Positions 18,500 to 29,799 of a stretch of DNA of 64,000 bases are shown here, piece after piece. Origin of the DNA: Phaeacidiphilus oryzae TH49. GTDB lineage: Bacteria > Actinomycetota > Actinomycetes > Streptomycetales > Streptomycetaceae. The stretch spans positions 744,001 through 808,000 of the forward strand of contig NZ_JQMQ01000004.1 of NCBI RefSeq assembly GCF_000744815.1, in the 5' to 3' direction. Position numbers and translations under genes: made by a program. Numbering within the stretch: position 1 is the stretch's first letter; the number at the start of each line of letters is the position of its first letter. The notes under the pieces are model-generated. The model was not told the DNA's origin, did no database searches, and worked only from the letters and a program-made list of their open reading frames with translations.

Positions 18500-18632
18500 G
18501 GCTCTACCCCTTGATCGACGACTTTCCGCCTCAGGACCGCAGCCTGCGGGTCGGTTCCTTACGCCGCGCTTTCGGCCGCGGGTGAAAGCCGGCCGTAAGC
18601 CGGGGGCCGCTACCATCGAGGACGGCAGCGGA

Positions 18633-18647
18633 TGCCATAGCAAATAG
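18633..18647. promoter_or_regulatory. TGCYATAGC motif before the response regulator
   Basis: TGCCATAGCAAATAG lies 15 nt before the response regulator start. The same 15-mer pattern, TGC(C/T)ATAGC followed by two purines, AT, A/T and G, occurs at 21590-21604 (minus strand) and 21700-21714. The core TGCCATAGCA is a one-mismatch palindrome, as expected for a dimeric repressor site. Possible GntR regulator binding site outside its own cluster. Confidence 0.45.
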
Positions 18648-18661
18648 AGGATGCTTGAGTC

Positions 18662-19348
18662 ATGCGCGTGTTGGTGGTGGAGGACGAAGAGGCCATGGTC
18701 GCCGCGCTGACCTGGGGCCTGGAAGCCGAGGGTTACGTCGTGGACGTGGCCCGGGACGGAGCGGAGGGCTTCTGGAAGGCGAGGGAGCTCGAGTACGACG
18801 TGATCGTTCTGGACGTGATGCTGCCCGGCCTCGACGGCTACCAGGTGTGCCGGCGGCTGCGTGAACAGCTGGTCTGGACGCCGATCCTGATGCTGACCGC
18901 GATGGACGAGGACCTCGACCACGCCGAGGGGCTGGACGTCGGCGCCGACGACTATCTGACGAAGCCGTTCTCCTACCCGGTCCTCCTCGCCCACCTCCGG
19001 GCGCTCACCCGGCGCGGACTGGGGGAGCGGCCGGCCGCGCTGACGGCCGGCGGGCTGCGCCTGGATCCTGCTGCCCGCACCGTCCTCCGGGAGGGCGCGG
19101 TACTGGACCTGACCAGCCGTGAGATCGCCGTCCTGGAGTATCTGATGCGCCGCAAGGGGCGGGTGGTGTCCAAGGCCGAGCTGCTCGACCACTGCTGGGA
19201 TCCGGCCTACGAGGGGGGATACACGGTGGTCGAGGTGAGCATCCACCGGCTCCGCCGCAAGATCGACCGAGCCGGTGGGCCGTCTGTCATCGCCACCGTC
19301 CGGGGCGCCGGCTACCTGATCGAGGATTCCGGGGAGGCAGCCCCGTGA
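18662..19348 (+). CDS. OmpR/PhoB-type response regulator
   Basis: 228 aa. Receiver domain with acidic residues EDE (7-9), phospho-acceptor Asp51 in VIVLDVMLPG and Lys101 in YLTKPF. A C-terminal winged helix (about 130-222) has the family ending VVEVSIHRLRRKID and VRGAGYLIE. The following kinase gene starts within its stop codon (GTGA), so they are a coupled pair. This type usually controls membrane, metal or stress genes; the divergent cytochrome-like gene is a possible target. Confidence 0.94.
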   Translation: MRVLVVEDEEAMVAALTWGLEAEGYVVDVARDGAEGFWKARELEYDVIVLDVMLPGLDGYQVCRRLREQLVWTPILMLTAMDEDLDHAEGLDVGADDYLTKPFSYPVLLAHLRALTRRGLGERPAALTAGGLRLDPAARTVLREGAVLDLTSREIAVLEYLMRRKGRVVSKAELLDHCWDPAYEGGYTVVEVSIHRLRRKIDRAGGPSVIATVRGAGYLIEDSGEAAP

Positions 19349-20832
19349 CCGCCGTCGAACCGCGCCGATCCGAGGCGCCGACTCGCCCTCGCGGTCGCCT
19401 CCGCCCCCGCCTCCGCCCCCGCTTCGGCCGGCGCCCGCGCACCCTGCGTACCCGGGTCACCGTGCTGGCGAGCCTGGCCCTGACGGCGGCCGTGGTCCTC
19501 GGGGTCCTGCTGCTGTACCAGCTGCAGATGACCGGGGTGAAGCGGACGCTCGACGGCGAACTGCGCACCTACGCGGTCCAGATCGCGCAGGCCGCGGGCG
19601 CGGGGAACGGCACCTGGTCCGGCCCGCTGCCGCAGTCGAGTCTCGATCCCAACGCCGAGGCCCAGGTGCTCGGCGCGGACGGCGAGGTGCTCGCCGCCAC
19701 CCGTACGCTGACCGGCCTGCCCGCCGTCTACGTTCTGCCCCCGGGTGCGGAGGTCCCGGTCCGGCAGCCGGCGGCCGACCGCGCGATCCCCCGCGATGTG
19801 CGGGTGGTGGCGGAGCGGACCGTCGTGGGCGGCCGGAAGGTCACCATCGTCGCCGGCACTCCGACCGGCCTCCTGCACGAGGTCGACGAGGAGTTCGCCC
19901 ACTACCTGCTGATCGGGCTGCCGCTGATCCTCGCGCTGGCGGCCGGGACGGTGTGGCTGGTGGTCGGGCGCGCCCTGCGGCCGGTCGAGGAGATCCGGCA
20001 GGCGGTCACCGACATCACCTCGGCGGACCTCTCCCAGCGGGTGCCGGAGCCCGGGACCGCCGACGAGGTCGGGCACCTCGCCCAGACCATGAACGGAATG
20101 CTCGCCCGCCTGGACGAATCGGCCCGCCGGCAGCGCCGCTTCGTCGCCGACGCCTCGCACGAGCTGCGCAGCCCGCTGGCCGCGGTCCGCACCACGCTGG
20201 AGGTCGGGCTGGCCCATCCGGAGCGGGCCCCGTGGCCGGACCTGGCGGGCAGCGCGGTACGGCAGTCGGCCCGGCTGGAGGAGCTGATCCGGGATCTGCT
20301 GCTGCTGGCGAAGGCCGACGAGCGGCTGCTCGCCGAGCGGCGGCACCCGGTGAGCCTGGCCGAGGTGATCGACGAAATCCTGGCCGGCGCTCCGGCCGCG
20401 CGGTGCGAGGTCCGGGTGGACGTCCCGGCGGAGGCGGTCGTGCCGGGGAACGGCGATCACCTGGAACGGCTGTTCCGCAACCTCGTCGACAACGCGCTGC
20501 GCCACGCCCGGCACCGCGTGGCGGTGGGCGCCGCGGTTCTGGAGCGGACCGTCCGGGTGGAGGTCGACGACGACGGCGCCGGGATCCCGGTCGCCGAGCG
20601 GGAGCGGGTCTTCGACCGGTTCGTGCGCCTGGAGGGCAGCCGGGAGCGGGGCAGCGGAACCACCGGCCTGGGCCTGGCGATCGCTCGCGAGATCGCGATC
20701 GCCCACCACGGTCGGATCGCGATCACCACCAGCCCCGCCGGCGGAGCCCGGGTGGTGGTGGTCCTGCCCCGCGCGGGTGTCGACGGCGGGACCCCCGGGG
20801 CCGGGCCCGGGGCGCCGCGTCGGGGTCCGTGA
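19345..20832 (+). CDS. HAMP-type sensor histidine kinase
   Basis: 495 aa. An arginine-rich N-terminus is followed by helix 1 (about 39-59), an extracytoplasmic sensor loop, helix 2 (about 196-218), a HAMP segment, the HisKA box with His272 in DASHELRSPL, and the ATPase domain (NLVDNALRHA, DDDGAGIP, GTTGLGLAI). The N-terminal arginine run (RLRPRLRPRFGRRPR) mirrors short direct repeats in the DNA. The C-terminus ends in a Gly/Pro tail. Cognate to the overlapping regulator. Confidence 0.93.
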   Translation: MTAVEPRRSEAPTRPRGRLRPRLRPRFGRRPRTLRTRVTVLASLALTAAVVLGVLLLYQLQMTGVKRTLDGELRTYAVQIAQAAGAGNGTWSGPLPQSSLDPNAEAQVLGADGEVLAATRTLTGLPAVYVLPPGAEVPVRQPAADRAIPRDVRVVAERTVVGGRKVTIVAGTPTGLLHEVDEEFAHYLLIGLPLILALAAGTVWLVVGRALRPVEEIRQAVTDITSADLSQRVPEPGTADEVGHLAQTMNGMLARLDESARRQRRFVADASHELRSPLAAVRTTLEVGLAHPERAPWPDLAGSAVRQSARLEELIRDLLLLAKADERLLAERRHPVSLAEVIDEILAGAPAARCEVRVDVPAEAVVPGNGDHLERLFRNLVDNALRHARHRVAVGAAVLERTVRVEVDDDGAGIPVAERERVFDRFVRLEGSRERGSGTTGLGLAIAREIAIAHHGRIAITTSPAGGARVVVVLPRAGVDGGTPGAGPGAPRRGP

Positions 20833-20853
20833 CTCGGCTACGGCCGAACCGGA

Positions 20854-21525
20854 TCAGTCGAGTTCGCCGAGGACCAGGTCGACGCCTGCCGTGGCGTGCC
20901 GACGGAACACCTCCTCGACCAGATCGGGGTCGCGACTGCGGAGAGCCACCAGGATGGCGCGGTGGCCCTGCAGGCGGCGCCGGGCGAGGTCCGGGTGCTG
21001 CCGCATGGTCTCCACCGATCGGGTCCGCCGCTCGGTGCCGATGATCGCGAGGGTCTGGACGAGGTTGCGAAGGGTGCGGTTGTCGGCGGCCTGTTCGATC
21101 TCGGCGTCGAACTCGCGGGCGATACGGAGCTGCTCCGTGCTGTCGTCGCGCTCGTCGCCGAGCCGGTCGACCAGCGCTTCCATCCGGTCCAGCGCCGCGT
21201 CGCTGATCTTCTCGGTGGCGAACCTGGCCTCCAGCGCGCGGAGCGCCGCGCCGGTCAGCATGAGTTCGCGGAGTGTCTCGGGGGAGTGGTCGACGACCCG
21301 GAGCGTGCGGATGGAGACCCGTTCGATCAGGCTCTCCTGCTCGAGCCGCCGGAGGGCCTCGCGGACGGGGGTCGGGCTCACGTCCAGCCGGGCCGCCAGA
21401 TCCCGCTCGGTGACCCGCTGGCCGGGCTTGAACTTGCCGGTCGCGATGCCCTCCCGGATGGTCCGGTAGGCCTGTTCGGCGAGTGATCGCGAGCGCTGGG
21501 CCGGCGTCAGATCCGGTGCGGTCAT
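20854..21525 (-). CDS. GntR family (FCD-domain) regulator
   Basis: 223 aa. Winged helix at about residues 12-80 (RVTERDLAARLDVSPTPVREALRRLEQ) and an all-helical FCD ligand domain (FDAEIEQAADNRTL, GHRAILVALRSRDPDLVEEVFRRH). FCD members sense organic acids and usually repress adjacent catabolic operons. It is divergent from the AtuA/Hyu operon, 254 nt apart, and that gap holds two copies of the TGCYATAGC motif. Convergent with the histidine kinase gene, only 21 nt apart. Confidence 0.92.
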   Translation of the reverse strand: MTAPDLTPAQRSRSLAEQAYRTIREGIATGKFKPGQRVTERDLAARLDVSPTPVREALRRLEQESLIERVSIRTLRVVDHSPETLRELMLTGAALRALEARFATEKISDAALDRMEALVDRLGDERDDSTEQLRIAREFDAEIEQAADNRTLRNLVQTLAIIGTERRTRSVETMRQHPDLARRRLQGHRAILVALRSRDPDLVEEVFRRHATAGVDLVLGELD

Positions 21526-21589
21526 CGGGGTCGGACTCCTCGGTGGGCGTGCGGTGGGGCGGAAGGCGGCGTCTGGGGAGCATCGGATG

Positions 21590-21604
21590 CAATCCGCTAT
21601 GGCA
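21590..21604 (-). promoter_or_regulatory. GntR operator candidate, gntR side
   Basis: On the minus strand this reads TGCCATAGCGGATTG, 65 nt upstream of the GntR regulator start. It matches the copies at 21700-21714 and 18633-18647. Likely the autoregulatory site. Confidence 0.5.
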
Positions 21605-21699
21605 TGTTACATCGGGCCGTTCGATCTGGACCGTCCATGACCAACAGACCCCGAAGTCGCGGCCTGAAGAGAGCACTGCCCAGATGCCTTGACCAGTTT

Positions 21700-21714
21700 T
21701 GCTATAGCGAATAG
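21700..21714 (+). promoter_or_regulatory. GntR operator candidate within the operon promoter
   Basis: TGCTATAGCGAATAG sits between a good -35 (TTGACC, 21689-21694) and a TAGCCT -10 (21712-21717) with 17-bp spacing. A repressor bound here would block RNA polymerase directly. The core GCTATAGC is perfectly palindromic. The operon's first ATG is 63 nt beyond the -10. Confidence 0.6.
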
Positions 21715-21779
21715 CCTGCGGGAAACCGGAGGGTGCGCCGCGCGCACCAATCCGAGTTGCGCACGAGCTAGGAGAGTTC

Positions 21780-23186
21780 ATGCCCGACACAGCCGACACA
21801 GCCGACACAGTAGATCCGGCCGCCGGAGTCGGGGTCCTGGTGCCCAGTGGGATGCTGGGCGCCGGATTCCCGCCCGAGACCATCGCCCGCGGCATCGCGC
21901 TCGGCGCCGATGTGATCGCCGTCGACGGGGGGTCGACCGACTCCGGGCCCCACTACCTCGGCACGGGGACCGCCAAGACCTCGGCGCGCGCTGTCCGCAG
22001 GGACCTGCGGATCCTGTTGGCGGCGGCCGCGGAGGCCGGTATCCCGCTGATCATCGGCTCCTGCGGGACGAGCGGCAGCGACTCCGGGGTGCGGTGGGTA
22101 GCGGACCTCGTCGAGTCGGTCTGCGCCGAGGACGGCCTGCGGCTGACCGTGGCGAAGATCTTCAGTGAACAGCGGGCGGAGCGACTGCTGCCGGCGCTGG
22201 CGGCCGGCCGCATCCGCCCGCTGCCGCCCAGTGGTGCGCTGGATCCGGCGACGCTCACCGACTGCGCCCGCATTGTGGGGATGATGGGCCACGAGCCCAT
22301 CGAGCAGGCCCTGCGGGCAGGTGCGCAGGTGGTGCTGGCCGGCCGGGCCACCGACACCGCGGCCTCCGCGGTGGTCCCGCTGATGAAGGGCATGCCGCCG
22401 GGGCCCGTCTGGCACGCCGCGAAGATCGTCGAGTGCGGTGGGCAGTGCACCACCGATCCGCGCTCCGGCGGGGTGTTCGCGCGCATCGACGCGACCGGGT
22501 TCACCATCGAGCCGCTGGACCCCGATACGGCCTGCACACCGACCTCGGTGGCTGCGCACATGCTGTACGAGACCGCGGACCCCTACCTGATGCGGGAGCC
22601 CGCCGGGACCATCGCGGTGGCGGACGCGCACTACACCGCCCTCGACGGCCGGGCCGTACGGGTGGAGGGCTCGCGCTTCGAACCCGCAAACCAGTACACG
22701 GTCAAGTTGGAGGGCGCGGCGGTCGCCGGCTATCAGACCCTCTCCTTCGTCGGCATCCGCGACCCCCGCATCCTGGCCTCCATCGACGAGTGGGCCCAGT
22801 GCCTGGAGAAGACCCTGGCCGACCGGGTCGAGAGCGTGCTGGAGCCGGCCCCGGGCTCGTGGGCCATGGATCTGCGGCTGTACGGCCACAACGCGGTCCT
22901 CGGCGACCTGGAACCGAGCTCCGGGCCCCCCACCGAAGTCGGCGCGATGCTCCTGGTCAACGCCTTCGACCAGGAGACCGCCACGGCGATCTCCCAGCTC
23001 GCCAACCCGCTTCTGCTGCATCTCCCGCTGCCGGGGATGGGCTACCTGCCGAGTTTCGCCTTCGCCACCTCGCCCGCCCATGTGGACCGCGGCGCCGTGT
23101 ACGAGTTCGTCCTCAACCATGTCGTCGAGACGGACTCACCGACCGCACTGTTCCGAATCGAGATCGAGGAGCCGAGCCGTGGCTGA
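21780..23186 (+). CDS. AtuA-like protein (DUF1446, acyclic terpene utilization family)
   Basis: 468 aa, soluble. Opens with a Thr/Ala/Asp repeat (DTADTADT), then VLVPSGMLGAGFPPETIARGIALGADVIAVDGGSTDSGPHYLG in overlapping blocks that match the family, with IIGSCGTSGSD near residue 95 and a C-terminal region ending GMGYLPSFAFATSPAHV. AtuA itself is needed for citronellol/geraniol use in Pseudomonas, but its reaction is not established; relatives occur with DUF4387 and hydantoinase-like genes in many catabolic operons. First gene of the GntR-controlled operon; CTAGGAGAG precedes the ATG. Confidence 0.87.
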   Translation: MPDTADTADTVDPAAGVGVLVPSGMLGAGFPPETIARGIALGADVIAVDGGSTDSGPHYLGTGTAKTSARAVRRDLRILLAAAAEAGIPLIIGSCGTSGSDSGVRWVADLVESVCAEDGLRLTVAKIFSEQRAERLLPALAAGRIRPLPPSGALDPATLTDCARIVGMMGHEPIEQALRAGAQVVLAGRATDTAASAVVPLMKGMPPGPVWHAAKIVECGGQCTTDPRSGGVFARIDATGFTIEPLDPDTACTPTSVAAHMLYETADPYLMREPAGTIAVADAHYTALDGRAVRVEGSRFEPANQYTVKLEGAAVAGYQTLSFVGIRDPRILASIDEWAQCLEKTLADRVESVLEPAPGSWAMDLRLYGHNAVLGDLEPSSGPPTEVGAMLLVNAFDQETATAISQLANPLLLHLPLPGMGYLPSFAFATSPAHVDRGAVYEFVLNHVVETDSPTALFRIEIEEPSRG

Positions 23187-23538
23187 GACCACTGGGGCCG
23201 CTGAGACCACGCAGACGGCGAAGCCGACGCTGGACGAGCTGGCGCTGGAGGTGCGCTCGAAGAACGCCGGCCCCTTCTGGATGACCGTGGAGGCGTTCTT
23301 GCCCGACGCCGAGGCCTACCGGGCCGCCGACCGGCTGATCGACGAGGACCTGATCGCCGGGCTCTACCGGGTGCCGCGGGAGTCGGTCCGGGTGTTCCGC
23401 ATCCCGGAGCTACGGGTGGTGAAGGTGTCCTTCCCGCGCAGACTGGCCCAGGGCAGCCTCCACGACCGGGACATCCACGCCGGCCAGCACCATGTGCCGC
23501 TCGCCGGAATGCCCGTGCCGCCCGTGGGACGGGCCTGA
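23179..23538 (+). CDS. DUF4387 domain protein
   Basis: 119 aa from a GTG that overlaps the end of the AtuA-like gene by 8 nt, which indicates coupling. After a Thr/Glu-rich leader (ETTGAAETTQTAKPT) comes LDELALEVRSKNAGPFWMTVEAFLPD, the conserved DUF4387 opening, and later RIPELRVVKVSFPRR. It ends with RDIHAGQHHVPLA. Proteins of this family almost always sit next to AtuA-like genes, or are fused to them, and probably form a subunit or small partner of the same unknown enzyme. Confidence 0.85.
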   Translation: MAETTGAAETTQTAKPTLDELALEVRSKNAGPFWMTVEAFLPDAEAYRAADRLIDEDLIAGLYRVPRESVRVFRIPELRVVKVSFPRRLAQGSLHDRDIHAGQHHVPLAGMPVPPVGRA

Positions 23539-23583
23539 GGCCCACCCCGAGGCACACCGCCCGCGAACGAACGGGAACGATCA

Positions 23584-25326
23584 ATGACGACCGATCCGAC
23601 CGAACCGACGGAACAGACCGAACAGACCGACCAGGCCGAACAGACCGGCGCGATGGACCCCATCAGGTTGGAGATCTGGTGGAGCCGCCTCGCCGCGATC
23701 GCCGACGAGGCCGCGACCACGCTTCTGCGCACCGCCTTCTCCACCATCATCCGGGAGTCCAACGACTACACGGTGGTGGTGATGAACGCCTCCGGCGAGA
23801 CGATCGCCGAATGCCGCGCCGGCATCCCCGCGTTCGCGGCACTGATGGGCACCCTCACCCGGCGGCTGCTCGAACGCTTCCCGGCCGACACCTGGCGGGA
23901 GGGGGACCGGGTGATCACCAACGACCCCTGGCTGGCCACCGGCCATCTGCCCGATGTCGCGATGGTGTCTCCGGTCTTCCACCGGAACCGGCTGGTCGGC
24001 TTCACCGGAACCGCCGCCCACCTGCCCGACATCGGCGGCAGCCACACCATGGGCGCCACCGATCTGATGGCCGAGGGCCTGCTGATCCCACCGCTCCACC
24101 TGTTCCGCGCGGGCGTCCGCAATGAGGAGGTCGTGCGGCTGCTGCTGGGCAACGTACGGCTGGCCGGCCAGGTGTGGGGCGATCTGGAGGCGCAGATCGC
24201 GGCCAACGAGGTCTGCCGGCGGCGCACCGTCGAGTTCCTCCGGGACACCGGGCAGGACGACCTGTCGGCGCTGTCGCGAGCCGTCCACCGGCGGGCCGAG
24301 GTGGCCATGCGGCGGGCCGTGGCGGCGGTTCCCGACGGCGTCTACCGGTCGAGGGTGGAGGCGGACGGGGTGCCGGGCCGGCCGACGCGCATCGAGTGCG
24401 CCGTCACCGTCCGAGGCGAGGAGATCACCGTGGACTACGGCGGCAGCTCTCCGCAGGTCCGACATGCCGTCAACTCCACGCTGAACTACACCACCGCCTA
24501 CACCGTCCATCCGCTGAAGATCGTCCTGGACCCCTTCACCCGAAGCAACTCCGGCTCGTACCGGTGCGTCCGGGTGACCGCTCCCGAGGGGTCGATCCTC
24601 AACCCGGTCTTCCCCGCTCCCGTACTCGCCCGCCATCTGACGGGCCATCTGCTCTGCTGTGCCGTCTACCAGGCGCTCGCCGGAGTGCTGCCGGAGCGGG
24701 TGATCGCGGACAGCGGGGGCGCGCCCGCTCTGCGCGTCCAGCTCTCCGGCCGCGACGAACGCGGCGAGGAGTTCGGGCTTGTGCTGTTCGCCAGCGCCGG
24801 AATGGGGGCCTCGGCGCACGCGGACGGCCTGTCCGCGACCGCCTTCCCCACCAACTCCGGCGGTGGCGGCATCGAGGCGCTGGAGGCTGGCTCGCCGCTG
24901 CTCTTCACACGGAAGGAGTACCGCCCGGACTCCGGGGGCGCGGGCACCATGCGCGGAGGGCTGGGCCAGGTCATCGAGGTCCACAACCCGACATCCTGGC
25001 CCGTACGCGCGGTGCTGCTGGGGGATCGGGAAGAACATCCCGCCCAGGGCATGCGGGGCGGACGCCCGGGTCTGCCGGCAGCCGTCGAGATCCGCCCGGG
25101 CGCGGGAGGCGAGGGGAGCGCCGCCGTCCCCCTCAAGTCCGCCACCGTGCTGCCGCCCGGCGGCACGATGGTCATCCGCTTCGCCGGAGGCGGCGGATAC
25201 GGCCCCCCGGCAGGACGCGAACCGGCGGCCATCGCCGCCGACCTCCGCGCCGGCCTCGTGTCCCGCTCCGCCGCCGTCGAGGACTACGGGGCGGAGACCG
25301 TCACGCGGGTAAGGGCCGGTGCCTGA
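23584..25326 (+). CDS. HyuB family hydantoinase B/oxoprolinase subunit
   Basis: 580 aa. After a Thr/Glu/Gln-rich leader the core starts at MDPIRLEIWWSRL, which may be the functional start. Family landmarks are ITNDPWLATGHLPDVAMVSPVF, HTMGATDL, the NSTLNYTTAY region and NSGGGGIEALE. With HyuA this forms an ATP-dependent enzyme of the 5-oxoprolinase, N-methylhydantoinase, caprolactamase or acetophenone-carboxylase group; the two subunits' substrate differs widely. The order B then A here, with AtuA-like and DUF4387 upstream, differs from the simple hydantoinase operons. Confidence 0.88.
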   Translation: MTTDPTEPTEQTEQTDQAEQTGAMDPIRLEIWWSRLAAIADEAATTLLRTAFSTIIRESNDYTVVVMNASGETIAECRAGIPAFAALMGTLTRRLLERFPADTWREGDRVITNDPWLATGHLPDVAMVSPVFHRNRLVGFTGTAAHLPDIGGSHTMGATDLMAEGLLIPPLHLFRAGVRNEEVVRLLLGNVRLAGQVWGDLEAQIAANEVCRRRTVEFLRDTGQDDLSALSRAVHRRAEVAMRRAVAAVPDGVYRSRVEADGVPGRPTRIECAVTVRGEEITVDYGGSSPQVRHAVNSTLNYTTAYTVHPLKIVLDPFTRSNSGSYRCVRVTAPEGSILNPVFPAPVLARHLTGHLLCCAVYQALAGVLPERVIADSGGAPALRVQLSGRDERGEEFGLVLFASAGMGASAHADGLSATAFPTNSGGGGIEALEAGSPLLFTRKEYRPDSGGAGTMRGGLGQVIEVHNPTSWPVRAVLLGDREEHPAQGMRGGRPGLPAAVEIRPGAGGEGSAAVPLKSATVLPPGGTMVIRFAGGGGYGPPAGREPAAIAADLRAGLVSRSAAVEDYGAETVTRVRAGA

Positions 25327-25329
25327 GAG

Positions 25330-27456
25330 ATGGAAGACATGATGGAGACGGCCGAGACGGCCAAGCCGACCAGGGTCGGCGTGGACATCGGCGGTACGTT
25401 CACCGACCTCGTCCTCCACGACGAGACCCGGGCGCTGACCTGGACGGGCAAGCGGCTCACCACCCCCGAGCAGCCGAGCCGGGCCGTCATCGAGGGCCTG
25501 CGGCGCATCCTGGAGGAGACCGGCACCCCGATCGGCCGGGTCGGCTCCCTCGTACACGGGACCACGTTGATCACCAACACCCTGCTGGAGCGCACCGGCG
25601 CCAGGGTCGGACTGCTCACCACCGAGGGGTTCCGGGACACCCTGGAGATGGGCCGCGAGATCCGCTACGACGTCGAGGACCTCCACGCGCGGCCCGCCCC
25701 CGTGCTGGTGCCCCGGCATCTGCGGTACGGCGTGGGCGGGCGGATGACCGCGGACGGGACCGAGCACGCGCCCCTGGACGAGGAGGCCGTCGTCAAGGCC
25801 GCCCGGGCGCTGGTGCTGGACCACGGCATCGAGTCGCTCGCCATCGCCTTCCTCCACTCCTACGCCGACCCCGCGCACGAGCTGCGGGCGCGGGAGTTGG
25901 TCCAGGAGGCGTTCCCCGAGCTGCTCATCACCCTGTCCTGCGAGGTCGCGCCGGAGATCCGGGAGTACCAGCGCACCAGCACCGCCTGCGCCAACGCCTA
26001 TGTCCAGCCCGGCGTGTACGCGTACCTCGACGGTCTGGAGGGTGAACTGGCCGGCATCGGCTTCACCGGGCGGCTCTCCGTCATCCTCTCCGGCGGCGGG
26101 GTCACCACGGTGGACGAGGCGAAGGCCTTCCCGGTCCGGCTGCTGGAATCCGGTCCTGCCGCGGGCGCCATCGCCGCGGGCTTTCTGGCCCGCGCCGCCG
26201 GCGAGCCGAAGGTGATCTCCTTCGACATGGGCGGCACCACGGCCAAGATGTGCCTGATCGAGGACGGCCGCCCGGATGTCAAGCGCGAGTTCGAGGCCGG
26301 CCGGCTGGACAGGTTCAAGCCGGGGTCCGGGCTCCCGCTCAAGCTGACCGTGGTCGACATGATCGAGATCGGTTCGGGCGGCGGGTCGATCGCCGCCGTC
26401 GACGACCTCGGCCTGCTCCGGGTCGGCCCGCGCAGTGCCGGTTCGGTGCCTGGGCCGGTGGCCTACGGCCGAGGCGGCCGGCAGCCCACCGTCACCGACT
26501 CCGACCTCCTCCTCGGCTACCTGAACCCGGACTACTTCCTCGGCGGTGAGCTCGAACTCTCGCTGCCCGCTGTGCGGCGGGCCGTGGGGGAACTCGCGGA
26601 GGCCCTCGGCGTCGACTCCCACACGGCGGCGCTCGGCATCCAGGAACTGGTGGCCGAGAACATGGCGGCGGCGACCCGGATGCACCTCGCGGAGAAGGGT
26701 CAGGACCCGCGCGGATACGCCCTGATGGCCTTCGGCGGCGCCGGGCCGGTGCACGCCTACGCGCTGGCGCGGCTGCTCAAAGTGAACCGGGTCATCGTGC
26801 CGATGGGCGCCGGAGTGATCTCGGCCTTCGGATTCTTGGTGGCCGCCCCGACCGTCGACGAGGTGCGGGGGTATCCGACCTCCCTGGACCGGGCCGACTG
26901 GGGGCGGGTGGCCGCGCTGTACGCGGAGATGGAGGCTCGGGCCCGCAGGCTGCTGGGGCGCGAGGGCCAAGAGGCGGAGTGCGGGCACGGGATCGTCTTC
27001 TCCAGGTCGGCCGACATGCGGTACGCGGGGCAGGGCTTCGAGATCGAGGTGCCGCTGTCCGCAGGGGTGTGGGGAGCGGGAACCGATCGGGCCGACCGCA
27101 CGGCCGAGGCCTTCGGCGACGTCTACCGGCGGACGTTCGGCCGAACCGTGCGCGATGCGGTGCCCGAGGTCGTCAACTGGCGGCTGTCCGCCCGGCTGCC
27201 CGGGGCGGCCCCGCGGCTCGCCCACCGGCCGCCGGCCGCGGAGCCCCGACGCCGTTGGCGGAGCATCCACTGCCCCGGGCATGGCGAGGTCCGGGCGGAG
27301 GTCTACGACCGCTATGCGCTCACCCCGGGGACGGTGCTCCGCGGCCCGGCCGTCTTCGAGGAGCGCGACTCGGCCTGCAACGTCGGGCCGGACTGCACCG
27401 TCACCGTCGACGACCACCTCAACCTGGTGGTCGACATCGATCGGGGGCCCGCATGA
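25330..27456 (+). CDS. HyuA family hydantoinase A/oxoprolinase subunit
   Basis: 708 aa, starting 3 nt after HyuB. The ASKHA nucleotide-binding motif GVDIGGTFTDLVL is near residue 16, with VHGTTLITNTLLERTGA, the second phosphate-binding segment ISFDMGGTTAKMCLIEDG and MIEIGSGGGSIAAVD. A C-terminal region of about 170 aa matches the family's beta-rich domain. It should phosphorylate a lactam, imide or ketone oxygen using ATP. The leader METAETAKPT again resembles the neighbouring protein starts. Confidence 0.9.
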   Translation: MEDMMETAETAKPTRVGVDIGGTFTDLVLHDETRALTWTGKRLTTPEQPSRAVIEGLRRILEETGTPIGRVGSLVHGTTLITNTLLERTGARVGLLTTEGFRDTLEMGREIRYDVEDLHARPAPVLVPRHLRYGVGGRMTADGTEHAPLDEEAVVKAARALVLDHGIESLAIAFLHSYADPAHELRARELVQEAFPELLITLSCEVAPEIREYQRTSTACANAYVQPGVYAYLDGLEGELAGIGFTGRLSVILSGGGVTTVDEAKAFPVRLLESGPAAGAIAAGFLARAAGEPKVISFDMGGTTAKMCLIEDGRPDVKREFEAGRLDRFKPGSGLPLKLTVVDMIEIGSGGGSIAAVDDLGLLRVGPRSAGSVPGPVAYGRGGRQPTVTDSDLLLGYLNPDYFLGGELELSLPAVRRAVGELAEALGVDSHTAALGIQELVAENMAAATRMHLAEKGQDPRGYALMAFGGAGPVHAYALARLLKVNRVIVPMGAGVISAFGFLVAAPTVDEVRGYPTSLDRADWGRVAALYAEMEARARRLLGREGQEAECGHGIVFSRSADMRYAGQGFEIEVPLSAGVWGAGTDRADRTAEAFGDVYRRTFGRTVRDAVPEVVNWRLSARLPGAAPRLAHRPPAAEPRRRWRSIHCPGHGEVRAEVYDRYALTPGTVLRGPAVFEERDSACNVGPDCTVTVDDHLNLVVDIDRGPA

Positions 27457-28244
27457 CCCCGAGCCCGGAAGGACCAGAGGGACCGGAAGGACCGGAAGTA
27501 TCGGAACCATCGGAGGGAGACGTCACCGTGACGAGTGTGAGCACCGACCGGATCGGGGCACTGGCCGCCTGGGACACCCCGGCGCTCAGCAACGCCCTGG
27601 ACAGCCTGCGCCTGCGCGACCCCGGCACCGGACACACCGATGGCTCGATACACCGGATCACCGGGCCCGGGGGCCCGTCGGCCCCGGCGCCCGGTGCGGC
27701 TGCGGCGCCCCCGATGGTGGGCCGGGTGGTCACGGCCCGGATGGCGGCCAGGGAGGCGGGGGAGGACGGCGTGCCGGTCTCCCGGCTGCACCGGGCGATC
27801 ACGGAGAGCGAGGGGCCGGTGGTCGTGGTCCTGCAGGACTGCGACGAGCCGCCGGGCGCCGGGGCGTTCCTGGGCGAGGTCAACGGCAGTCTGCTGGCGG
27901 CGCTGGGGGTCGGCGGAGTGGTCACCGACGGCCGGGTCCGCGACATCGGCGAACTGCGCGGCCTGCCCTATCCGGTGTACGCCCGGGGGCTGTGTGTGGC
28001 CCGCGCCCATATGCGCCTCATCGAGGTGGGAGGCGAGGCCACGGTGGCGGGGCTCACCGTCCGGCCGGGCGACCTCGTCCACGGCGACGAGCACGGGGTC
28101 CTCCACATCCCCGATGCGGCCTTGCCCGGCATCCTCGACAAGGCCGAGCTGATCCGCGCGGACGAGGAGGAACTCGTCGCCTGGTCGCGCTCGGCCGAGT
28201 TCAGTGTCGACGCACTGCTCGCGCTGCGCCGCGTCCGGCACTGA
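27453..28244 (+). CDS. RraA family protein (aldolase/demethylmenaquinone-methyltransferase-like)
   Basis: 263 aa, ATGA overlap with HyuA. A repetitive acidic leader (PEGPEGPEGPE) precedes the RraA fold: LAAWDTPALSNALDSL, GEVNGSLLAALGVGGVVTDGRVRDIGEL and GDLVHGDEHGVLHIPD. These contain the metal- and oxoacid-binding residues of 4-hydroxy-4-methyl-2-oxoglutarate/oxaloacetate aldolases (Gly-x-x-Arg-Asp pattern). The GTG codons near 27527 could be the ancestral start. In this operon it may cleave or decarboxylate the ring-opened product. Confidence 0.85.
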   Translation: MTPSPEGPEGPEGPEVSEPSEGDVTVTSVSTDRIGALAAWDTPALSNALDSLRLRDPGTGHTDGSIHRITGPGGPSAPAPGAAAAPPMVGRVVTARMAAREAGEDGVPVSRLHRAITESEGPVVVVLQDCDEPPGAGAFLGEVNGSLLAALGVGGVVTDGRVRDIGELRGLPYPVYARGLCVARAHMRLIEVGGEATVAGLTVRPGDLVHGDEHGVLHIPDAALPGILDKAELIRADEEELVAWSRSAEFSVDALLALRRVRH

Positions 28245-28316
28245 CCGGGCTCTGACCTGGCACTGACCGGGCCTCGGCCCGGCCCCGACCGGGCACTGAC
28301 CGGGCCCCGACCGACC
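28238..28316. repeat. Imperfect CACTGACCGGGC repeats after the RraA gene
   Basis: Units such as GCACTGACCGGGC, CTGACCTGGCA and CCCCGACCGGGCA recur about six times between the RraA stop and the MFS start. The array fills most of the 97-nt gap. It resembles the codon-like simple repeats at neighbouring gene ends and has no obvious regulatory role. Confidence 0.55.
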
Positions 28317-28341
28317 CGCAACCGCACAGGAAGGCCACGAG

Positions 28342-29799
28342 GTGGCTCGCGTGACCGAGGAAGCTTCCGCAGCCCTGCCCGCACCGGGTTCCGGGCCGAT
28401 CCCGTCCGCCGCGGTGCGGCTGGTGTCCCTCCGACTGGACGCCCTTCCGGTGGGGCGCTGGCACCGCCGCGTCATCGGGGTGGTCGGGCTGGCATCCTTC
28501 TTCAACTTCTTCGAGGTGGCGCTGGGCACGGTGCTGATGCCGCTGCTGCCGGCGCCCTGGACGGCCACCACCCTGGACAAGTCGCTGATCATCGGCGCGC
28601 CCTTCGCCGGAGAGATGCTCGGCGCCCTGCTGCTGTCCCGCTACGCGGACCGGTTCGGCAGGCGCTGGATGTTCCGGGTCAACCTGATCGGCTACGCCGT
28701 ACCGGCCCTGGCCTGCGCGGCGGCGCCGTCCGCCACGGCGTTGATCGTGCTACGGCTCCTGGTCGGGGCCGGCCTGGGGGCCGAACTCACCTTGGTGGAC
28801 ACCTATCTGGCCGAACTCATGCCGGCCGCCCGGCGCGGCCGGCTGATGGTGCGCAGCTACGCCCTCGGCATGCTGGCGGTGCCGATCGCTGGCGTCCTGG
28901 CCGCGCTCCTGCCGCACAGCCTCGCGGGCCTGTCCAGCTGGCGGTGGATCACGCTGCTGAACGCGTTGGGCGCGGTTCTCGTCTGGAGGCTCTGCCGCCG
29001 GCTCCCGGAGTCCCCACGCTGGCTCGCCGAACGCGGCCGAACCGCCGAGGCGTTGGACGGGGTGGCGCGGATCGAGGAGCAGTACGCGATCCAGGCCGGA
29101 GAACGGCCGGCGCCCGCGAGCGCCGAGGCGGCGGCGGCCCGTCCGGGCTCGGGGGACCACCCCGGCGGACGGCAGTCCGCAGAGCAGCCCACAGAGCGGC
29201 CCGAGATCCCGCGTCTGCTGTCCCCGCCGCTGATCCGCCGGACCCTGCTCCTCTTCATCATGCAGCTGCTCGACCCGATCGGGTTCTACGGATTCGCGTC
29301 CATCGCCCCACTCGTGCTCATGGCCAAGGGGTTCGGTGTGGTCCACTCCCTCGGCTACACGGCGCTGACCGCCCTCGGCTACCCGCTGGGCACCCTGCTG
29401 CTCCTTCCGCTGAGCGAGCTCATCCAGCGCCGCACCCTGACCATCCTCTCCACCCTGCTGACGGCCGCGGCCGGCTGCGCCTTCGGGATGGCCACGGCGA
29501 CGCCACTGGTCCTCGCCGCGGGCGGGCTGATGTCGGTGTTCAGTGTGCTGCACTCCACGGTGTCCCGGGCCTACGAGGCGGAACTGTTCCCGACCGCCGT
29601 GCGCAACACGGCCCTGGGCAACGGCTACGCCGTCTCCCGCCTGGTCTCCGCCGTCCTGCCGTTCGCGGCGCTCAGCCTCCTCGGTGCGCTCGGTGCCACC
29701 GCGCTCTATGCCACCTGCGCTGCACTGCTGGTGGTCCTGGCGATCGCTGTCGCGGCCCTCGGCCCGCGGACGAACTCGCGCCGCCTGGAAGACATCTGA
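28342..29799 (+). CDS. MFS transporter (sugar/organic acid porter type)
   Basis: 485 aa with twelve membrane helices in two halves and a long hydrophilic central loop (about residues 225-290). The signature between helices 2 and 3 is visible (SRYADRFGRRWMF), as is LLVGAGLGAELTLVDTYLAELMPAARRGR after helix 4. It belongs to the metabolite:H+ symporter side of the superfamily, so import of the operon's substrate is likely. GTG start with GGAAGG upstream. Last gene of the operon; a 15-bp hairpin follows. Confidence 0.88.
   Translation: MARVTEEASAALPAPGSGPIPSAAVRLVSLRLDALPVGRWHRRVIGVVGLASFFNFFEVALGTVLMPLLPAPWTATTLDKSLIIGAPFAGEMLGALLLSRYADRFGRRWMFRVNLIGYAVPALACAAAPSATALIVLRLLVGAGLGAELTLVDTYLAELMPAARRGRLMVRSYALGMLAVPIAGVLAALLPHSLAGLSSWRWITLLNALGAVLVWRLCRRLPESPRWLAERGRTAEALDGVARIEEQYAIQAGERPAPASAEAAAARPGSGDHPGGRQSAEQPTERPEIPRLLSPPLIRRTLLLFIMQLLDPIGFYGFASIAPLVLMAKGFGVVHSLGYTALTALGYPLGTLLLLPLSELIQRRTLTILSTLLTAAAGCAFGMATATPLVLAAGGLMSVFSVLHSTVSRAYEAELFPTAVRNTALGNGYAVSRLVSAVLPFAALSLLGALGATALYATCAALLVVLAIAVAALGPRTNSRRLEDI

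Follow-up and report, generated by a model that had tools for sequence, protein, structure and literature searches.

A predicted operator of an FCD-type GntR regulator shared by a catabolic operon and a two-component gene pair in Phaeacidiphilus oryzae TH49

The subject of this study is a stretch of 64,000 nucleotides from Phaeacidiphilus oryzae TH49 (contig NZ_JQMQ01000004.1, positions 744,001 to 808,000), hereafter referred to as the window. It contains a gene for a GntR-family regulator (gntR, 20854–21525, minus strand), which is flanked by the genes of a response regulator (RR) and a sensor histidine kinase (HK) on one side and by an operon starting with an AtuA-family gene on the other. 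We find three related palindromes at this locus and consider it likely that they are the operators of GntR, which would repress its own gene and the AtuA operon as well as, in this genome, the two-component pair. The computation shows that the sites exist and are rare, that they are conserved together with the regulator, and that the predicted two-component promoter contains a conserved repeat; from sequence, we infer that GntR binds these sites, that it represses rather than activates, as well as the direction of control, the involvement of a ligand and a two-input logic.

According to the mechanism that we propose, ligand-free GntR dimers would occupy site 3 within the promoter of the AtuA-DUF4387-HydB-HydA-RraA-MFS operon, site 2 upstream of gntR itself and site 1 immediately after the promoter from which the response regulator and kinase are transcribed, and would block RNA polymerase at each of them. 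Release of GntR from the DNA would be brought about by a ligand, probably a substrate or intermediate of the pathway. As the response-regulator promoter keeps a direct repeat, the two-component pair probably depends on its own activated regulator as well; its expression would then require both the release of GntR and activation by the phosphorylated response regulator. This suggests a sensor that is switched on only together with the nutrient pathway.

Three palindromic sites and their rarity

A sequence-only reading of the window had noted three copies of TGCYATAGC, and all three are found where it had placed them: TGCCATAGC at 18633–18641 (plus strand) and at 21604–21596 (minus strand), and TGCTATAGC at 21700–21708 (plus strand). 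Only 0.19 copies are expected in the window, and none of 100 shuffles yielded three. The same reading had described the motif as a 15-bp palindrome. While the motif stands, the 15-mer itself is not palindromic, but consists of the core and one arm, out of register, of an 18-bp palindrome that is centred on a TA step and has the consensus TATTTGCTATAGCAAATA. An alternative 5-5-5 form, GCNATANNNNATNGC, was abandoned because the relatives revealed the true centre of the palindrome; with up to one mismatch, it gave 183 genomic matches versus 201 for its reversed control.

Motif scans and a position matrix agree on the three predicted operators. Site 1 (CGGATGCCATAGCAAATA, 18629–18646, plus strand) scores 22.9, the second-best value in the window, and falls within the 5' leader predicted for the response-regulator gene, with its centre 24 bp before the ATG at 18662. 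The first copy had been read as standing directly before this start; it does adjoin the gene, but ends 14 bp short of the ATG. Site 2 (AACATGCCATAGCGGATT, 21591–21608, minus strand), the weakest of the three with a score of 16.5, is located upstream of gntR, its centre ~74 bp before the ATG, whereas site 3 (GTTTTGCTATAGCGAATA, 21696–21713, plus strand) has the best score in the window (25.8) and lies in the spacer between the −35 and −10 elements before the AtuA operon. From centre to centre, sites 2 and 3 are separated by 105 bp, or about ten helical turns by our own arithmetic, a spacing that varies in relatives. The matrix was trained on 35 sites from relatives, picked by the core TGCYATAGC, and thus includes none of the window's sites; it covers neither weaker variants (e.g. 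TGCTACAGCA) nor some of the core sites, for instance those upstream of MMPL genes. The best non-site in the 64 kb scores 5.0, and the best match in the background set, 270 kb of other genomic stretches that partly overlap, scores 14.5.

The outcome of a genome-wide scan, which had been suggested as a way to see whether copies are scattered, depends on the form of the motif. In the 7.8-Mb genome, the bare 9-mer TGCYATAGC has 10 matches (20 for the reversed control), three of them within 3.1 kb and seven scattered elsewhere; according to our own gene caller, five of these seven fall within predicted genes or at their edges, and the other two are intergenic. By contrast, the extended form TGCYATAGCRNAT matches the genome at the three window sites only, with no match for its reversed control. 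Across ten genomes, the extended motif yielded 19 matching rows, 16 at the gntR cluster and three elsewhere (one in G164 and two in G065; genomes and loci are given by our own handles), compared to one for the reversed control; in these counts, a single palindromic place can yield two rows. Two of the ten genomes scanned, G267 and G643, gave no match.

These numbers make it exceedingly improbable that site 1 is a chance match. Such a match could be invoked given the seven other genomic copies of the bare 9-mer, and site 1 was already known when the extended motif was defined, but the three off-cluster matches of this motif in ~77 Mb (the ten genomes) correspond, by our own arithmetic, to ~1e-4 per 3 kb. 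Moreover, 8 Mb of simulated sequence contained no match reaching the score of site 1 (22.9), with a matrix that had been built without this site.

One of the intergenic 9-mer copies (L004 ~996–1013, G000:C5:2325631) has a matrix score of 10.6 and is possibly a weak extra site; the gene behind it presumably resembles those of PucR-type regulators.

Conservation of the motif with gntR

We traced the GntR regulator in 30 relatives, which gives 31 loci including the window. A query of a named genome collection with GntR had also returned 15 loci of 29–42% identity from distant groups (Priestia, Rhizobium, Hymenobacter and others); these were set aside, though three of them had entered a first tblastn. 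Counting k-mers in intergenic DNA up to 5 kb from gntR, with no motif supplied, returned GCTATAGCAA as the commonest 10-mer (23 of the 30 relatives), followed by TGCTATAGCA (18 of 30); the sister form TGCTACAGCA is found in 14 of 30. The genes of the relatives were called with our own simple GC-position caller, which makes 'intergenic' approximate here; it missed gntR in G643, G713 and G1135 as well as the window's own response regulator.

The exact 9-mer core is present in 28 of the 31 gntR loci, the window counted, and the remaining three (G643, G1091 and G1021) carry variants of it. A matrix scan with slightly different pseudocounts covered 18 of the 31 loci, most of which were also training loci. 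All 18 have a site scoring at least 13 within ~75 bp 5' of gntR, the poorest being that of G1021 (14.0), and the nearest sites lie 11–72 bp before the gene. Likewise, the site nearest to the transporter gene is found 19–33 bp before its start in 15 of these loci; the exceptions are G643 (70 bp), G1021 (38 bp) and G1091, whose stretch has no such gene. For G1010 and G420, the gene was counted as a transporter by its position, and the position of gntR in G643 was taken from a separate k-mer survey. The motif, whose conservation in related genomes had been proposed as a check, is hence found there before gntR and before the transport/AtuA operon. The rarity of its extended form and its co-occurrence with gntR support the earlier proposal that it is the GntR operator, and through the relatives, the family of the three palindromes can be assigned to FCD-type GntR as its putative operator. 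On the protein side, the hexapeptide TPVREA, which we take to lie in the recognition helix, is identical in 11 of 11 aligned GntR proteins.

As one copy of the motif adjoins the response-regulator gene, it might be argued that the response regulator, or yet another regulator, binds it instead of GntR. We regard this as very improbable, given the loci in which only one of the two systems is found. On the one hand, gntR loci without response-regulator/kinase matches in the stretch (e.g. G713, G065, G278, G403 and G885) still carry the motif. On the other hand, homologous response-regulator operons without a detected gntR show no motif, but a different conserved repeat instead. The latter group comprises ten genomes with a close response regulator (63–74% identity; G194, G170, G041, G018, G095, G191, G050, G096, G038 and G204), in which no operator core was found before the operon and no matrix match above 8 in the fetched stretches; in G041, this check covers 65 bp, and a single core match in G096 sits inside the MMPL gene. 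Here, 'no detected gntR' refers to a search at E 1e-30, complemented in nine of the ten genomes by profile searches (E 1e-50, with a limited number of candidates scored). The status of G191 comes from the E 1e-30 search, which missed gntR in G029, G077, G039, G084, G269 and G285; in these six genomes, it was found with a profile or by position. Among 297 genomes of the family, the response regulator (E<=1e-65) was found in 169 and gntR (E<=1e-30) in seven, the latter being an undercount, since profile searches later found more in the sample.

The predicted operator at the two-component promoter

For the AtuA operon, we predict the promoter TTGACC-17-TAGCCT (21689–21717, plus strand) from the sequence and an alignment with two relatives. 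It consists of a −35 element, TTGACC (21689–21694), a 17-bp spacer that holds the core of site 3, and a −10 element, TAGCCT (21712–21717). The third copy had been placed exactly between the −35 and the −10 elements, which is correct for the core, while the 15-mer intrudes 3 bp into the −10 element. The same layout is found in G105 and G304, whose GntR proteins are 70% identical to that of the window, with TTGACA-17-TACGTT (core TGCCATAGCA) in one and TTGACA-17-TAGCGT (variant TGCGGTAGCA) in the other.

In front of the response-regulator gene, the predicted regulator box is a direct repeat of [AT]AAG with a spacing of 11 bp (18583–18601, plus strand), formed by AAAG (18585–18588) and TAAG (18596–18599). 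All 17 promoters compared, from homologous MMPL-RR-HK or RR-HK operons, contain it, as against 19 of 5100 shuffles; in the 64-kb window, the pattern has three matches on both strands, two besides that of the promoter. The comparison comprises 17 operons with promoters of the window's type (group 1) rather than of the second type described below (group 2); G041, whose contig ends 65 bp before the gene, was left out. A literal 36-letter promoter consensus had also been tried and was rejected as badly registered; it beat the shuffle maximum in eight of the 17 promoters, the window's not among them. The 11-bp spacing would suit an OmpR-type box, and the repeat may be the response regulator's own box. 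The predicted −10 element of the response-regulator/kinase operon, TACCAT (18611–18616, plus strand), lies 11 bp after the repeat; by eye, we counted TAC or TAG at this distance in 14 of the 17 promoters (G105, G050 and G038 differ). Site 1 would accordingly come to lie just behind the transcription start, touching the ribosome-binding region. An operator of a regulon should adjoin the promoter of its target, and site 1 does so at this predicted promoter.

The suggestion that the signalling pair is tied to the GntR signal is in line with the location of site 1 close to the response-regulator start, and with the lack of the operator in the homologous operons without gntR. Site 1 could alternatively belong to the gene of a small membrane protein (17849 to ~18499, minus strand, start assumed), which diverges from the response-regulator gene and shares the intergenic region with it. 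We give this little credence, as the centre of site 1 is ~138 bp from the assumed start of this gene and 24 bp from that of the response regulator, a distance that compares with those typically seen before gntR and the transporter gene in the 18 scanned loci; more distant second sites do occur.

The wider neighbourhood of gntR offers further context. Matches to both the response regulator and the kinase were found in the fetched stretch near gntR in 16 of the 31 loci, 12 of which also have an MMPL gene; as these loci are not independent and the stretches differ in length, no probability is attached to this count. The window's type accounts for seven of the 16 (G000, G105, G304, G164, G029, G077 and G990) and a second type for nine, in most of which the regulator has ~40% identity to that of the window (G267, G429, G442, G039, G1091, G285, G1010 and G420, plus a weaker pair in G889). 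G269 has a pair of weak similarity where its stretch ends, which was not included in the count. Because two distantly related MMPL-RR-HK cassettes (62–74% and ~40% identity) adjoin the same regulator in different genomes, it is conceivable, if somewhat doubtful, that the GntR/AtuA pathway often pairs an intracellular ligand gate with an extracellular or envelope sensor, and that in the window, this gate has moved onto the sensor genes themselves. The second, distant cassette was seen near the same GntR in L134, L135, L136, L137, L138, L141 and L143; in L134, L135 and L138, an operator site lies in the divergent region between MMPL and gntR.

Several points weigh against control of the two-component pair, or against the prediction as a whole. 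Among the eight group-1 loci, an operator between the promoter and the response-regulator gene was seen in this genome alone, and G105 and G304 show none at the two-component promoter. In five loci (G164, G029, G077, G990 and G020), the DNA separating the transporter operon from the MMPL operon carries one or two operators, with the centre of the nearest one 135–199 bp before the MMPL start and beside the divergent transporter gene; being closer to the transporter, these operators may serve only the transporter. The score of site 2 is no higher than that of the weakest training site, and since the matrix sites were chosen by their core, only the flanks (and the k-mer count) are independent evidence. 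The promoters of both operons are predictions: a consensus promoter scan called nothing in 18500–22000 and so missed that of the AtuA operon, whose −10 element is poor. Finally, the repeat pattern was picked after the promoters had been inspected.

The same five loci could also indicate that site 1 is left over from an earlier arrangement of the genes, in which it was part of the intergenic DNA between transporter and MMPL genes, with sites 2 and 3 being the working operators. The absence of ABC genes before AtuA and of any match to MMPL in the window would fit this scenario. However, the operators of the relatives lie upstream of the 11-bp-spaced repeat and that of the window downstream of both the repeat and the −10 element; site 1 is therefore not in the inherited position. 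It also retains 13 of the 18 consensus letters and scores above site 2. We thus deem a leftover unlikely, albeit the most plausible of the alternatives, and favor site 1 as a working GntR operator for the two-component pair. The sequence GAGGATGCTTGAGTC before the response-regulator start resembles the junction between the MMPL end and the response-regulator start in relatives, which suggests that the MMPL gene may have been lost from the window by deletion. G020 (L037 11547–14293), a seventeenth locus besides the 16 with both genes, has an MMPL gene and, behind it, a kinase fragment, but no response regulator between the two, and its operon looks internally deleted.

Gene content and known systems

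The genome of P. oryzae consists of six contigs and is the sole member of its genus among the genomes searched. In the window, the two-component pair comprises an OmpR/PhoB-type response regulator (18662–19348, plus strand; PF00072, PF00486) and a sensor histidine kinase with HAMP, HisKA and HATPase domains (19345–20832, plus strand; PF00672, PF00512, PF02518), that is, a receiver and winged-helix regulator adjacent to a HisKA/HATPase kinase as judged by Pfam. The GntR protein, which we presume to own the operators, has an N-terminal winged helix (PF00392, E 8.9e-18) and a C-terminal FCD domain (PF07729, E 3.7e-12), both above the cut-off; searched against its own genome at E<=1e-20, it matches only itself. 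Next to gntR, the genes on the plus strand from 21780 to 29799 are taken as one operon: an AtuA-family protein as the first gene (21780–23186; PF07287), a DUF4387 protein (23179–23538; PF14330, matched on a longer frame, 23080–23538), a hydantoinase B/oxoprolinase-like protein (23584–25326; PF02538), a hydantoinase A/oxoprolinase-like protein (25330–27456; PF01968, PF05378), an RraA-like aldolase family protein (27528–28244; PF03737, matched on 27453–28244) and, taken as the last gene, an MFS transporter (28351–29799; PF07690, PF00083). No tRNA genes are found in the 64-kb window. The small membrane protein divergent from the response regulator has no Pfam match; by eye, it looks like the product of L034 5638–6279 (minus strand), which is found in the same neighbourhood in G304.

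The system resembles local repressors of the FadR subfamily, which, according to an excerpt of PMC4494728, combine a winged helix with an FCD domain, bind AT-rich palindromic operators, and have their sites between the autoregulated regulator gene and a divergent operon. The operator consensus of this FadR/FCD subfamily is described there with TKGT/ACMA boxes, exceptions including BioR and NanR, whereas the predicted operator of the window has TTGC/GCAA around TATA (TATTTGCTATAGCAAATA) (PMC4494728, excerpt). Also unlike such local repressors, the predicted targets include a two-component pair. The pair itself resembles the MMPL-RR-HK operons found in other genomes of its taxonomic family, presumably the Streptomycetaceae, with a response regulator that is 62–74% identical (in the group-1 examples) and the same 11-bp promoter repeat, but in contrast to these, the window has no MMPL gene and has a predicted GntR operator between promoter and response regulator.

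No description of this regulon was found in the literature searched (titles and the beginnings of abstracts, with few subscription-journal papers covered), nor were any papers on DUF4387, and the string TGCTATAGCA retrieved only papers that, by title, concern other subjects. The comparative evidence supports a local GntR regulon with an unusual putative operator and an unusual extra target. It provides a previously uncharacterised regulator group with a precise predicted operator, and connects a catabolic cluster with a sensor kinase and, in many cases, with an MMPL transporter as well. With this operator, members of the regulon could be gathered from other actinomycetes and the ligand identified.

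As for the substrate, the nearest NCBIfam models are those of the alpha and beta subunits of caprolactamase for HydA and HydB, respectively, but with 482.6 and 242.6 bits, the scores are far below the equivalog cut-off of 1000; unlike caprolactamase/hydantoinase-type HydA-HydB operons, the operon in the window also contains AtuA and DUF4387. In relatives, the clusters also encode a tartrate dehydrogenase, which scores above its NCBIfam cut-off (G278), or a 2-hydroxyacid dehydrogenase (G304). Based on these models and dehydrogenases, our guess is a small hydroxy or oxo acid, or a lactam. The tartrate dehydrogenase (L040 52–1161), situated in a related GntR/AtuA cluster, is a hint to the substrate class. 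Lastly, the transporter appears to have been replaced, the operons being alike in other respects: while the operon of the window ends with an MFS gene, those of its nearest relatives, G105 and G304, begin with genes for an ABC binding protein, permease and ATPase (L030 8932–12810 and L034 8909–12793).

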